Assembly (NCBI GenBank): GCA_021810625.1
Contig: JAJZIJ010000011.1
Span: 1-64,000, forward strand
Length of the DNA: 64,000 nt
Reading direction: 5' to 3'
Source of the DNA: Acidobacteriota bacterium
GTDB lineage: Bacteria > Acidobacteriota > Terriglobia > Terriglobales > Acidobacteriaceae
Positions 46-6,082 of the stretch are shown one piece after another. A program made the position numbers and the translations under genes. The notes beneath the pieces are model-generated. The model ran no database searches. It saw only the letters and a program-made list of their open reading frames with translations, and was not told the DNA's origin. Within the stretch, counting starts at the first letter, position 1. Each line of letters begins with the position of its first letter.

Positions 46-1201
46 AGTGTACTTGAGCGGTGATTCCCGGCCATCCCCAGCACTACAATCTGATCCGAAG
101 TAATCCCCCCAAGTGTACTTGAGCGGTGATTCCCGGCCATCCCCAGCTCAGAGGCAACGCGCCTCATAAGGTGATTAAGTGTACTTGAGCGGTGATTCCC
201 GGCCATCCCCAGCCGTACGGCTGATGGCGACCTCCAAGCGATCAGTGTACTTGAGCGGTGATTCCCGGCCATCCCCAGCCTGCTAAAGTTATGGCTATTA
301 CAATGTAGAAGTGTACTTGAGCGGTGATTCCCGGCCATCCCCAGCGTGCTCCGATGCCGCCCATACCGTTGGCGTAGTGTACTTGAGCGGTGATTCCCGG
401 CCATCCCCAGCAGGAGCCGATGACACCCAAACGTATCCAGCAGTGTACTTGAGCGGTGATTCCCGGCCATCCCCAGCGGAAAGCCCGAAGACACAAGCAG
501 CGCTAGAAGTGTACTTGAGCGGTGATTCCCGGCCATCCCCAGCAACCTACGCGGCCATGCTAACCATTCTTTGAGTGTACTTGAGCGGTGATTCCCGGCC
601 ATCCCCAGCTCAATGAAGGTTTTCACTCGCGGCCTTCGCAGTGTACTTGAGCGGTGATTCCCGGCCATCCCCAGCTCAATGAAGGTTTTCACTCGCGGCC
701 TTCGCAGTGTACTTGAGCGGTGATTCCCGGCCATCCCCAGCCTTAGAACAGATGTTGAATGTAGGACGCACAGTGTACTTGAGCGGTGATTCCCGGCCAT
801 CCCCAGCCCATTCCGGCTAGGTGAGTACCCGTCACAGAGTGTACTTGAGCGGTGATTCCCGGCCATCCCCAGCATATTATTCACCTTATGAGGCGGGTTG
901 CCTAGTGTACTTGAGCGGTGATTCCCGGCCATCCCCAGCCAACTAGAAGCGTCCCCACCGATAACACGAGTGTACTTGAGCGGTGATTCCCGGCCATCCC
1001 CAGCAACTATCACGGCTGTGGCGCAGCCGTCGCTAGTGTACTTGAGCGGTGATTCCCGGCCATCCCCAGCCGCGTCCGGTTCGCAGCGTGACGGTTCCAA
1101 GTGTACTTGAGCGGTGATTCCCGGCCATCCCCAGCTGAGTTGCTGGAATGCGTGCTTGGCTGCGAAGTGTACTTGAGCGGTGATTCCCGGCCATCCCCAG
1201 C
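46..1201 (-). CRISPR. CRISPR array, 18 repeats and 17 spacers, probably subtype II-C
   Basis: Eighteen identical 36-bp repeats, beginning AGTGTACTTGAG and ending CATCCCCAGC on the + strand, start at 46, 112, 178, 244, 310, 376, 442, 508, 574, 640, 706, 772, 838, 904, 969, 1035, 1100 and 1166. Spacers are 30 nt except two of 29 nt. A 36/30 geometry fits type II (or V) better than I-E or I-C. On the minus strand the repeat starts GCTGGGGAT and ends GTACACT, resembling GC-rich type II-C repeats as I remember them, so crRNA is probably read leftward. The TACACT end resembles a -10 box, as in neisserial II-C repeats that carry their own promoters. Both terminal repeats are intact. Spacers at 610-639 and 676-705 are identical. 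No cas gene or convincing tracrRNA anti-repeat lies in the window, so effector genes are expected left of position 1. Subtype and strand are inference; the array itself is certain. Confidence 0.97.
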
Positions 1202-1309: not shown

Positions 1310-2056
1310 ATGACACGGCACTACTCCACGAGAGAATTTTTCCGGCAAATGCCGAATGCACTGCTGGCCCGCTACTTCCATGCGCGGGAACTATTCCACG
1401 ATCTGGATTTTGCAGCCATGCTGGAATCCAAGCCAGAGGAATTGTTCACGGCGTGGCTGGAGTTGCCGGACGGCCAGCGCAAGCCAATGGACGCGGAGTT
1501 CCGGGAGATATTCGCCCTGAGTTGCGAGAAGGGCTGGTGTGCGATTCGGGACGAGGCGGAATGGCACTTTCGGGACGCGCCGGAGTCATTCGCAGCGTTC
1601 ATCCAGCAGCTATCCGCACTGGCCAGTCATTCCGAGCGGGCGATAGTCACTTTTCTTGACCATAATCCATTCTGGAAAGGGGCGACGCTTTTCTATCGCG
1701 CCGACACGCTACCGTACTGGCGCAAGCGGAAGAACCTGCCGCACCAGCCAGCATCCGTGCATGAGGACGGTCGGCGCGAACTTGCCGATTCCATCCGCAA
1801 TTACTTTCATCATACCGAGGGGCGGGGCAACAATTGCGCGGTGGAGGCATTTCGTCGTGGCGGACTGGATTATTTCTTTGCCTATCCTGAGGACTATTCG
1901 CAACAAAGCATCGAGTGGGTAGACGGGCAGTTCGACCGCCGACCACATAACCCGGCTTTTGAAGTGATCTATGTGTACTCCCAAAGGGAAGGTTCGCTTG
2001 ATCTGAATTTTCGCGGCTCGAAAAATGTCGTTGAACCGCCGCAAGCGATGTCGTAG
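1310..2056 (+). CDS. Uncharacterised protein next to CRISPR array
   Basis: A 248-residue protein of unknown function. The ATG at 1310 follows GAGGGA at good spacing; an in-frame upstream start at 1277 lacks such a site. The protein is soluble in appearance, without signal peptide or membrane segment, and rich in aromatic and charged residues. Blocks such as PYWRKRKNLPHQPA, FHHTEGRGNNC and YFFAYPEDYSQQSIEW look like strongly conserved motifs. I recall related hypothetical proteins that continue well beyond this C-terminus, so this copy may be a shortened version ending at 2056; I cannot verify that here. It is followed 99 bp later, on the same strand, by the nuclease-NTPase-S1 gene, which suggests a two-gene unit. 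The position between a CRISPR array and a recombinase points to defence, but that is guilt by association only. Confidence 0.75.
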   Translation: MTRHYSTREFFRQMPNALLARYFHARELFHDLDFAAMLESKPEELFTAWLELPDGQRKPMDAEFREIFALSCEKGWCAIRDEAEWHFRDAPESFAAFIQQLSALASHSERAIVTFLDHNPFWKGATLFYRADTLPYWRKRKNLPHQPASVHEDGRRELADSIRNYFHHTEGRGNNCAVEAFRRGGLDYFFAYPEDYSQQSIEWVDGQFDRRPHNPAFEVIYVYSQREGSLDLNFRGSKNVVEPPQAMS

Positions 2057-2155: not shown

Positions 2156-4879
2156 ATGATATTTATCCTTCCGAATCCAGAGGAGTTGACGAGCGAGAGC
2201 GACATCGAGCAGAAATTGGTGTACCCGCTTCTCACCGCAGAACATCCTTCAGGCCTTGGTCTAGATCAAGCGACTATCCTTACCAAGGCAAGTATTCGCC
2301 GCTTCCCAATTGGTAAAGGAAATGATCGAAAACTTTATTATCCAGATTATTTGGTGCTCATCGGCGGTTTCCCACTCATTGTGGTGGAAGTGAAGGCCCC
2401 AGGCGAAGGGACTGATGAGGCATTCCGCGAAGCTCGGCTATATTCCACTGAACTGAATGCGCTATATCCATCTGGACTGAATCCACTCACTAAAGTTTTA
2501 GTGACTGACGGGGTCAAGATAGTGGCAGGGCGGTGGGATCATGCCGTACCTTCGGTTGAGATGGATATCTCTGCTCTCTCGCCATCCAATCAGAAGATGG
2601 CCGAACTGAGCGATTTACTTGGAGTTGCACGTCTCCGGAAAGATTTTGCCAGGATTGGCGCGGATATTAACCCCAAAAAATATTGGAAACCAAGGCGTCT
2701 ACTTGGCGGGGAAGCTATTCAGCAAGGTGAGGTTGGACACAACACCTTTGGTTCTACTGTAGCGGCCGATTTTGCTCACATCTTCAATCCGGCTACCGAA
2801 GATGACAGAATCAAAATCGCTACCAAAGGGTACGTACCATCGAAGCGTCGTGAGCGTTATGTGTATCCAATTGATAGAGTCATTCGGGCTTCGCGACCAA
2901 AGTTCGAATCAGAGGCGACACTGGTTGAGGACACTTCTGCCCCCCGTGAAATCCTCAGGAAATTAAAAGATCAGAAGCCACTCGAACACCAAGTACTTCT
3001 GCTGATTGGAAGTCCCGGATCCGGCAAGTCCACTTTCGTTGATCATCTTCAATACGCGGCGCTTCCCAAGGATATTGCAGATTCGACGGTGTGGGTGCGC
3101 CTTAACATGAACAATGCGCCCTCCGTGCAAGCAGAAATCTACGACTGGCTCAGAATGGAGATAATCAACGGCTGTCGTATGGCGTACCACGATATCGATT
3201 TTGATGAACTGCCGAGGCTCAAGAATGTCTTCTCCGTGGAAGTTCGGCGTTGGGCGGTGGGGGTTGGAAGGCTCTATACCGCCGACCAAAAGATATACGA
3301 CATCAAGTTAGCGGAGTTCATTGAGACTTTGTTGAGAGACCGCCACAAGCAGGCTACGGCATATGCACGGCACTGTGCGACGGAGCGCGGTAAGCTGCTG
3401 ATGCTCGTACTCGACAACTGCGACAAGCGAAATCGCGATCAGCAATTGCTGATGTTTGAGGCCGCACAATGGATTCAGAAAGAATTCCGCGCGCTTGTAA
3501 TTCTTCCACTCCGTGAGGAGACGTACGATAATCACCGCGACGAACCACCTTTGGATACGGCACTGAAGGACTTAGTTTTCCGGATCGATCCTCCCCTATT
3601 CCATTCGGTTTTAGTCTCACGGGTACAGCTAGCGCTAAATGAATTGACGAGTTCATCCACAAAGATGAACAGTTATGAGCTTCCAAATGGCTTCCATGTG
3701 AAATATCCTGATTCGGATAAGGCGTACTACTTGTCCGCAATCATGAATGCGGTGTTCCACTATGATCGTCAAATTCGACGAATAATAGTGGGCTTATCTG
3801 CTAGTAATATACGACGTGCGCTCGAGATTTTTCTAGAATTTTGCAGGAGCGGTCACATTGCCGAGGATCAGATTTTCAGGATTCGCCAGTCCGAAGGTAA
3901 GCATGTGCTTCCTCTGTCGCTTGTTGTTAGAGTTTTGCTTCGAATGAATCGCCGCTACTACGATAGCGATCCGTCATATGTGAAAAATCTCTTCACTCTT
4001 TACCACCGCGACGTGCGCCCAAGTTATTTTGTAAGATTGATTATCCTGCGATGGCTCTCACTTCGATTCTCTCAACAGGGACCAAGTCAACTTAAAGGTT
4101 ACTTTCGTATAGCCGAACTCATTAAAGAAATGTCATTATTTGGAACGGAGGCGACTGTTGTACTTCGCGAAATGGAATATCTGGCGAAAGCGCAGTGCGT
4201 CATCACCGAGGACTTCCGCACGGATCGGCTGACACAAGACGATTTGGTGCGCCTCGGTCCCGCCGGTTTTGTACATTTAGAGCTACTTGAAAATGCTGAT
4301 TATCTCGCAGCCGTCGCAGAAGACACCTGGTTCGATGATGAAAATTCCGCAAAGCGCGTGGCGGAACGGATCAAGCAATTAGAGAAGCAGTTTGACATCG
4401 GCAATACAATTGCGAATGCTCGAGAGGTACTCACTGCCTTGGAGAGCGCTAGGAAGCGCGATTTATCCGCAGTGTTGTCAATTGTTGAAAACTCAACCTT
4501 TGAAAACCTGACAGATCTAAGCGCGATCAAGCGAGGGTTGGATGTGTATGAAATATCATTGACCGCCAGGCCATGGCAAACAGTGCCGCAAAAATACCAT
4601 ATAGATGTGGAGTTAGTTGGTACTGTCACAAACGTGCGAGAGTTTGGAGTCTTTGTAGAACTGGAACCAGGTGTGACGGGTCTGATCCCAGCTTCGCGTT
4701 TGCCTCCACACTTCGACAAAATGGAGGACTTCGATCCTGGTGAAAAGATCATCGTTAAGCCTATGAACATCGATCCAATTAGAGCCAGAATGGGTTTACG
4801 TTTCGTTCGCAGCGCTGAGAAGCATACGGATTTACCATTTGGCCCTGAACAGAAATCCGTGGGATCAGTCTCCATATGA
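2156..4879 (+). CDS. Nuclease-like / P-loop NTPase / S1 RNA-binding fusion protein
   Basis: A 907-residue multidomain protein. The ATG at 2156 follows GAGG at 5-nt spacing. Residues about 10-130 resemble the N-terminal nuclease domain of type I restriction HsdR subunits: E18, YPD with D64, then E78-V-K80 form a PD-(D/E)xK set. A P-loop NTPase follows, with Walker A GSPGSGKS at 285-292 and a Walker B-like LLMLVLDN ending near D420. A long helical region continues to about residue 800. The C-terminus (about 814-885) is an S1-type OB fold, with GTVTNVREFGVFVEL followed by GLIPASRL. No helicase motifs are visible, so it is not a normal HsdR. The layout suggests a STAND-like sensor whose nuclease is controlled by the NTPase, with the S1 domain contacting RNA; this is inference. 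Base composition is visibly more AT-rich than in the core genes. The last residues run into recombinase sequence, so the natural C-terminus may have been altered. Confidence 0.85.
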   Translation: MIFILPNPEELTSESDIEQKLVYPLLTAEHPSGLGLDQATILTKASIRRFPIGKGNDRKLYYPDYLVLIGGFPLIVVEVKAPGEGTDEAFREARLYSTELNALYPSGLNPLTKVLVTDGVKIVAGRWDHAVPSVEMDISALSPSNQKMAELSDLLGVARLRKDFARIGADINPKKYWKPRRLLGGEAIQQGEVGHNTFGSTVAADFAHIFNPATEDDRIKIATKGYVPSKRRERYVYPIDRVIRASRPKFESEATLVEDTSAPREILRKLKDQKPLEHQVLLLIGSPGSGKSTFVDHLQYAALPKDIADSTVWVRLNMNNAPSVQAEIYDWLRMEIINGCRMAYHDIDFDELPRLKNVFSVEVRRWAVGVGRLYTADQKIYDIKLAEFIETLLRDRHKQATAYARHCATERGKLLMLVLDNCDKRNRDQQLLMFEAAQWIQKEFRALVILPLREETYDNHRDEPPLDTALKDLVFRIDPPLFHSVLVSRVQLALNELTSSSTKMNSYELPNGFHVKYPDSDKAYYLSAIMNAVFHYDRQIRRIIVGLSASNIRRALEIFLEFCRSGHIAEDQIFRIRQSEGKHVLPLSLVVRVLLRMNRRYYDSDPSYVKNLFTLYHRDVRPSYFVRLIILRWLSLRFSQQGPSQLKGYFRIAELIKEMSLFGTEATVVLREMEYLAKAQCVITEDFRTDRLTQDDLVRLGPAGFVHLELLENADYLAAVAEDTWFDDENSAKRVAERIKQLEKQFDIGNTIANAREVLTALESARKRDLSAVLSIVENSTFENLTDLSAIKRGLDVYEISLTARPWQTVPQKYHIDVELVGTVTNVREFGVFVELEPGVTGLIPASRLPPHFDKMEDFDPGEKIIVKPMNIDPIRARMGLRFVRSAEKHTDLPFGPEQKSVGSVSI

Positions 4880-5534
4880 TCGCGCTCTGGTCGCATTCAC
4901 CCTGCTGACCGGGGCGCGGGACAGCGCCATTGCTTCCATGAAGCTGAAGCATGTTGACCTAATAGAAGGCTGTGTCCACCAGGATGCGCGGGAGGTGAAG
5001 ACGAAATTCAGCAAAACCTTCGACACATTCTTCTTCCCAGTGGGCGAAGAGGTTCGGCGGATTGTGACAGAGTGGGTGCAATTTCTGCGGGAAGAAAAGC
5101 TGTGGGGTAACGACGATCCGCTGTTTCCGGCAACGAGGATTGCGCTGGGAGACAGTCAACAGTTTGCAGCGACCGGACTGGAGCAAAAGCATTGGAGTAC
5201 TGCCGAACCGATCCGCAGAATTTTTCGTGAGGCGTTCGAGCGCGCGGGTTTTCCCTATTTTCATCCGCACAGCCTGCGGAAGACGCTGGCCCGGCTGGGC
5301 GAGCAAGTCTGCCAATCGCCAGAAGCGTTCAAGGCATGGAGCCAGAATCTTGGACATGAACAGGTACTCACAACTTTTATGAGTTATGGCAAGGTGTCCA
5401 TAGACCGGCAGGGAGAGATTATCCAGGGAATCGGTATGCCCAAGCCATCCAGTCAGCCCGCAGTGGAAGACTTTGCGGAAGCCGTGGCGAGAAAATTGCG
5501 GGACGTAGGGGTGAGCCTTCCAGCGAAGCAGTAA
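4839..5534 (+). pseudogene. Tyrosine recombinase catalytic domain, N-terminus missing
   Basis: Up to 231 residues can be read from a TTG at 4839, overlapping the preceding gene by 41 bp in another frame. The catalytic domain is complete: R27 in GARDSA, a lysine around 54-60, H144-x-x-R147 in HSLRKT, H173 in LGHEQV and Y183 in MSYGKV. The core-binding and SAM-like N-terminal region of a normal integrase (full length about 350-400 residues) is absent, and there is no ribosome binding site of its own. I interpret it as an island integrase decapitated by the recombination that placed the S1-domain gene upstream. It could still be expressed by read-through, but independent integration activity is unlikely. 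The tRNA-Val gene lies about 470 bp downstream and is a plausible original attachment site, although I see no duplicated tRNA end. Confidence 0.8.
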
Positions 5535-5930: not shown

Positions 5931-6005
5931 GTGTTGCTTCTTCCTGTTTATCCGGTGCGTGTGCGTCTTTTTCGAGGATCGAAAGAGTGTATGTGATTGA
6001 AAAAA

Positions 6006-6082
6006 TGGTAGGCACGAGGAGACTCGAACTCCTGACCTCTACCGTGTCAAGGTAGCGCTCTAACCAACTGAGCTACGCGCCT
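6006..6082 (-). tRNA. tRNA-Val (anticodon GAC)
   Basis: The minus strand gives a full cloverleaf of 77 nt: acceptor AGGCGCG/CGTGCCT with one G-T pair, D-arm GCTC/GAGC, anticodon stem CTACC/GGTAG with loop TTGACAC (anticodon GAC), T-loop TTCGAGT, discriminator A and an encoded CCA at 6008-6006. Six T residues follow immediately on the minus strand and probably terminate transcription. It marks the right edge of the defence island. Confidence 0.97.

Follow-up and report, generated by a model that had tools for sequence, protein, structure and literature searches.

The left part of the window (the whole stretch of 64,000 nucleotides that was analysed) carries a CRISPR array, a truncated gene, a gene encoding a 907-aa protein, the remnant of a recombinase and a tRNA gene. 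These features, with the domains of the 907-aa protein, are as follows:

46 to 1201, forward strand: CRISPR array with 18 exact 35-bp repeats, the repeat being also present, with one change, in a type II array of another genome (G009)
1310 to 2056, forward strand: gene cut short at the C-terminal end, with 248 of ~390-420 aa left, from a family found beside Cas9 in G009; no partner of the next gene (homologue comparison)
2156 to 4879, forward strand: whole gene for the HsdR_N nuclease, ORC/STAND-like NTPase and S1 protein (ORF, Pfam, AlphaFold2, ~30 full-length homologues)
2156 to 2665, forward strand: PD-(D/E)xK nuclease domain, residues 1-170, with E14, E18, D64 and E78-x-K80 (Pfam HSDR_N, fold match, invariant residues)
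2666 to 2935, forward strand: linker, residues 171-260, with a conserved NxF motif (N196, F198) (homologue alignment, model)
2936 to 3955, forward strand: AAA+ NTPase of the ORC/Cdc6/STAND type with its lid, residues 261-600; Walker A at 285-292 (nt 3008-3031), D420 and R453 (alignment, profile and fold searches)
3956 to 4555, forward strand: helical/winged-helix region, residues 601-800 (AlphaFold2 model; alignments to ORC2/Cdc6 reach residue 719)
4562 to 4813, forward strand: S1 (OB-fold) domain, residues 803-886 (Pfam S1, E 8e-9; Z 13.7 to ribosomal S1; family signatures)
4839 to 5534, forward strand: tyrosine recombinase remnant, catalytic part only, whose ORF starts before the nuclease gene ends (ORF and Pfam)
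6006 to 6082, reverse strand: tRNA-Val(GAC), which bounds the variable island (synteny with the sister genome G001 stops at 5969)

With the ATG at 2156 as start codon, the open reading frame encoded 907 aa; a TTG at 2090 would extend it to 929 aa (ORF analysis). The initial annotation had read the protein as a nuclease, a P-loop NTPase and an S1 domain in this order, which was borne out by Pfam, the AlphaFold2 model, fold comparison and the homologues. The full-length AlphaFold2 model reached a pLDDT of 86.5 and a pTM of 0.81, and the nuclease part modelled with values of 84 and 0.76, respectively. The last ~20 residues (887-907) were unconserved, with a pLDDT below 50, and the tail of the protein ran into the truncated integrase.

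At the N-terminus, Pfam HSDR_N matched residues 61-122 with 29.1 bits (cut-off 25.1) and was detected in all 28 family members at E<=0.01. Structure prediction placed a nuclease fold there, as had been proposed, with residues 1-170 grouping with the PD-(D/E)xK nucleases of HsdR and type IIG enzymes: the nuclease part matched HsdR (3h1t; Z 11.7, 139 aligned residues, 4.6 A) and DrdV (7lvv; Z 10.8, 127 aligned residues, 2.9 A), and BpuSI was also among its fold matches. The NTPase possessed the Walker A motif G285-S-P-G-S-G-K291-S292 and the Walker B aspartate D420, exactly where they had been called. Models of the AAA, nSTAND and NACHT families (nSTAND3, nSTAND5 and NACHT among them) matched the P-loop region below the Pfam cut-off, while its best fold matches were ORC/Cdc6 proteins (Z 12-13), which scored higher than CED-4 (Z 10.4) and plant NRC. 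Residues 206-722 also matched RdrA (8hr8; Z 10.7, 319 aligned residues, 6.2 A), with ORC/Cdc6 proteins scoring equally or higher. At the C-terminus, Pfam S1 was above cut-off on residues 821-879 (E 8e-9), the model superposed on ribosomal S1 over 83 aligned residues at 1.7 A (Z 13.7), and the S1 signatures YGxFV and GL(I/V)HxS were kept across the family.

Relatives were collected from species genomes and viral contigs, scanned once each, and from plasmids. This yielded ~30 full-length homologues with 31-57% identity and an identical domain order, found in Pseudomonadota, Bacteroidota, Bacillota, Thermodesulfobacteriota and the source phylum, Acidobacteriota. The residues E14, E18, D64, E78, K80, G285, G288, G290, K291, D420 and R453 were invariant in 28/28 aligned full-length homologues, so that all the catalytic residues named beforehand (E18, D64, E78, K80, K291, D420) held. 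Pairwise dN/dS among prophage copies ranged from 0.02 to 0.08 in every domain, S1 included, wherever synonymous change was unsaturated, and the S1 domain had the highest dN. Full-length copies occurred in 3 of the 297 genomes of the source phylum, its own genome counted; the gene is accessory and not a housekeeping gene. In the tree of the family, phyla were mixed, and prophage, plasmid and chromosomal copies were interspersed.

The C-terminal part varied outside the full-length set. A sister clade lacked the S1 domain (L006, L026, L065/L066), and a more distant group combined an HSDR_N/HSDR_N_2-like nuclease with an AAA_16/AAA_22 NTPase. One member of that group, on a Rhodobacteraceae plasmid with type I restriction genes nearby (L027, 7122-9995; HSDR_N_2-like nuclease and NTPase), ended in two cold-shock domains, which represent a swap of the C-terminal OB-fold. 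The S1-less clade and the cold-shock relative display the modularity typical of sensor-effector proteins. Split genes were also observed. The Phenylobacterium homologue (L038, 9980-12425) was divided into two overlapping ORFs, one for the nuclease part and one for the NTPase part, by natural fission or a frameshift. In two E. coli genomes (L090, 8001-10652; FCI55), the homologue was annotated as two ORFs, a restriction endonuclease and an S1 protein, through a frameshift or a stop, either real or a sequencing error.

Prophages were the main setting of the homologues. At eight viral-contig loci (L049-L053, L055-L057), the gene was flanked by the gpA-like nickase and portal genes of P2-like prophages; two of these loci (L050/L051) were nearly identical, L057 started at the gene and thus displayed the portal side only, and L052 ended before the portal. 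In E. coli, a homologue (WP_001678413.1; L076, 15001-17652) 82% identical to the L049 gene was present in 109 of 5,426 complete genomes, at a single place in each and never on a plasmid. These copies look like one lineage and are therefore not independent. In all four E. coli loci opened among the 109, the gene lay between the replication endonuclease and the portal of a P2-like prophage remnant, which had lost most structural genes yet retained the nuclease-NTPase-S1 gene and a KAP NTPase. One such remnant (L076, 5722-22532) kept int, cI, gpA, the nuclease-NTPase-S1 gene, the KAP NTPase and the portal, with a truncated terminase. The KAP-family P-loop NTPase (614 aa; L076, 17751-19595) lay directly downstream of the homologue and matched the PADLOC candidate PDC-S49. 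The E. coli remnant looks like a domesticated defence locus. The gpA-portal interval of P2-like prophages is described as a hotspot of anti-phage genes (old, tin and others) by Rousset et al. (2022; PMC9122126), who also place non-defence genes (partition, toxin) there, and the same interval was reported as an anti-phage hotspot by Vassallo et al. (2022; PMC9519451).

At five other loci (L058-L061 and L068), the gene came right after that of a CI-type repressor and was read in the same direction. Phage lambda keeps rexAB just downstream of cI, and by analogy such a rex-like place would give expression in the lysogen. Three homologues were plasmid-borne, one of them adjoining a replication initiation gene. 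Neighbour listing found no recurring partner or neighbour cluster beside the homologues, and the annotated surroundings of the E. coli and plasmid copies contained neither hsdM nor hsdS. A dedicated defence-island setting was considered for the chromosomal members and rejected, as few of their 91 neighbours, and none of ten picked neighbours, matched defence models. No homologue was found in 50,697 records of isolated phages with three queries, and BFVD contained no full-length viral match.

The copy in the window was not within a prophage. Its GC content (48% compared to 58%) and GC3 (50% compared to 71-74%) mark it, from composition, as foreign and horizontally acquired, and it was absent from the same-genus genome G001. 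This genome was collinear with the window from 5969 rightwards and unrelated across the 500 bases compared on the left; housekeeping genes lay beyond the decayed variable region. No second copy of the tRNA-Val end, as the other border of the island, was found in the own assembly. The description of the locus as a defence island thus needs to be narrowed: the defence setting stands, shown far more strongly by the homologues at the P2 gpA-gpQ site and after cI, whereas the surroundings here are a small, decayed stretch of variable sequence next to tRNA-Val. The gene does lie between the CRISPR array and a recombinase; the latter is truncated, and the 1310-2056 gene also stands on the array side.

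Taken together, the domain order, the folds, the invariant catalytic residues, the purifying selection, the mobility and the residence at known defence sites form the basis of our proposal. The gene likely encodes a horizontally acquired, single-gene anti-phage (superinfection-exclusion) protein, in which sensing by the S1/helical part would gate an NTP-driven nuclease, and which is carried mainly by prophages and also by plasmids and chromosomal islands. Defence, to which the location of the copies points, is the best reading and a fairly probable one. The layout, with an N-terminal effector nuclease, a switch NTPase and a swappable nucleic-acid-binding end, fits an NTP-gated sensor-effector protein, and the S1 domain makes RNA-sensing plausible. 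In the resting state, the HsdR-type nuclease at the N-terminus would be kept silent by the ORC/STAND-like NTPase. Once a phage infects the cell, a phage-associated nucleic acid would be bound by the C-terminal sensor, made up of the S1 OB-fold and the helical region; the likeliest trigger is RNA or a single-stranded nucleic acid arising as the phage transcribes or replicates its genome. Binding or exchange of nucleotide would then lead to assembly and bring together the nuclease domains, which would cut DNA (of the phage, or of both phage and host) and abort the infection. The S1 as sensor, the activation by assembly and DNA as the target are suggested by family knowledge and by position. As counterweights, the AAA+ fold is equally close to DNA-replication initiators, and the sensor role of S1 is suggested by its position, one clade having no S1. 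A bolder version, which we regard as possible but less probable than not, would make the protein a distinct immune switch: an S1/OB-fold RNA sensor would gate an ORC-like AAA+ ring that licenses the HsdR-type nuclease, phage transcription or RNA would trigger DNA destruction, and relatives that swap S1 for cold-shock domains would respond to an altered cue.

The family was also compared with known systems. With HsdR, after which RefSeq names homologues, it shares the N-terminal HSDR_N PD-(D/E)xK domain. However, HsdR has an SF2 helicase motor and works with HsdM and HsdS, whereas the 907-aa protein has AAA+ and S1 domains instead. No helicase family scored above the Pfam cut-off, and the model contained a single ORC/Cdc6-type AAA+ fold; the initial annotation was thus right to see no helicase motifs and to set the protein apart from HsdR, with neither an SF2 helicase/translocase motor nor associated hsdM/hsdS. 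The layout resembles that of AVAST (Avs) and other bacterial STAND/NLR-like defence proteins, which also combine, in one protein, an N-terminal nuclease, a central P-loop NTPase, here putatively of the STAND/ORC class, and a C-terminal putative sensor, and reside in phage or satellite hotspots. Unlike in Avs, the C-terminus is an S1 OB-fold and not repeats, the length is about 890 aa and the NTPase is nearest to ORC/Cdc6 by fold; the Avs models of PADLOC had no match at E<=0.01 in the 28 members. PMC9122126 describes STAND proteins whose nuclease effectors are of the Mrr_cat or BpuSI_N type. CoCoNuT/McrBC systems likewise bring together an NTPase, a PD-(D/E)xK nuclease and OB-fold/cold-shock RNA-binding modules with a predicted RNA link (PMC11090510), but CoCoNuTs are multi-gene (McrB GTPase, coiled coils, McrC), whereas here one gene encodes an HsdR_N nuclease and an ORC/STAND-like NTPase.

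The McrB models of PADLOC had no match among the family members. RADAR RdrA, an AAA+ defence ATPase, aligned in part by fold, with a score below that of ORC/Cdc6; it acts together with RdrB, a deaminase, and carries neither a nuclease nor an S1 domain in its own chain. The old/tin and other systems of the gpA-gpQ hotspot share the prophage site and belong to different protein families, OLD being an ABC-type ATPase with a TOPRIM nuclease. This placement applied to L049-L053, L055-L057 and the opened E. coli loci, not to the copy in the window.

The claim that no named system has this domain order agreed with PADLOC-DB (2023) and the papers searched, neither of which gave a convincing match, the supplementary tables of PMC9122126 and PMC13092281 lying outside that coverage. 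The protein appears as a new example of the nuclease-NTPase defence theme, outside HsdR and Avs by membership features, with an open chance that an RNA-gated mechanism is also new. It represents an unnamed, widely spread family at two independent kinds of prophage site used for superinfection exclusion, and is probably a novel bacterial immune protein open to direct testing. As ordinary E. coli genomes hold an intact copy, laboratory strains can serve immediately to test defence and the role of S1. RNA would join the cues read by single-chain NTPase-nuclease immune proteins if S1 does act as the sensor of the trigger.

The main rival is direct restriction without cell death, in which the AAA+/winged region would bind invading DNA and the S1 domain a nascent transcript or R-loop, the nuclease would cut the foreign molecule and the cell would survive. 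The HsdR-type nuclease favours it, as do the best NTPase folds, which are those of DNA-binding ORC/Cdc6 proteins with the winged part aligned. Yet the protein has no translocase or helicase motor, and no conserved methyltransferase or specificity partner adjoins the gene, which leaves the discrimination of self from foreign DNA unexplained; we regard this reading as possible but doubtful. An accessory factor for prophage or plasmid maintenance or replication, with an ORC-like ATPase and a nuclease aiding the element and no role in defence, would agree with replication initiators being the best NTPase fold matches, with the plasmid copy beside a replication initiation gene and with the partition genes that PMC9122126 also places in the P2 hotspot. 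It is nevertheless unlikely, because the gene is found in unrelated elements whose replication modules are unrelated too (P2 rolling circle, lambdoid-like, plasmids, chromosomal islands), and E. coli prophage remnants shorn of most structural genes have kept it.

The 1310-2056 gene had been proposed as a partner and RNA guidance as a mechanism. Joint action with the 1310-2056 product as a two-gene system, or guidance of the enzyme by RNA from the neighbouring CRISPR array, is suggested by adjacency on the same strand, seen in the window only, and is very improbable. No partner recurred beside the homologues, the 1310-2056 gene is truncated, and its homologues (in G009, G092 and G099) occurred without the nuclease-NTPase protein. 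In G009, which lacks the nuclease-NTPase-S1 protein, a repeat identical to that of the window array but for one change in 35 was accompanied by Cas9 and a 422-aa full-length homologue of the 1310-2056 gene. Since G009 joins these three elements, the array and the 1310-2056 gene are what is left of a type II CRISPR locus that has decayed, and the nuclease-NTPase-S1 gene reached the site independently. The window array is apparently an orphan type II array: neither Cas1 nor Cas9 was found in the own assembly. With the array at the very edge of the contig, there is a small chance that the cas genes are missing from the assembly and not from the genome.

Within the array, the neighbouring spacers at ~610-640 and 676-706 were identical, and those at 152-178 and 877-903 were near-exact reverse complements. 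A near-perfect 19-bp inverted repeat, possibly an assembly artefact, lay just before it at the contig start (1-45). The family of the 1310-2056 gene (~390-420 aa), with members at L086 (7740-9008), L087 (8334-9503) and L088 (8111-9277), matched no Pfam family and had no match on plasmids. Its genes were followed by a 266-aa ORF in G009 and a 483-aa ORF in G099, with which they might form a two-gene system of their own.
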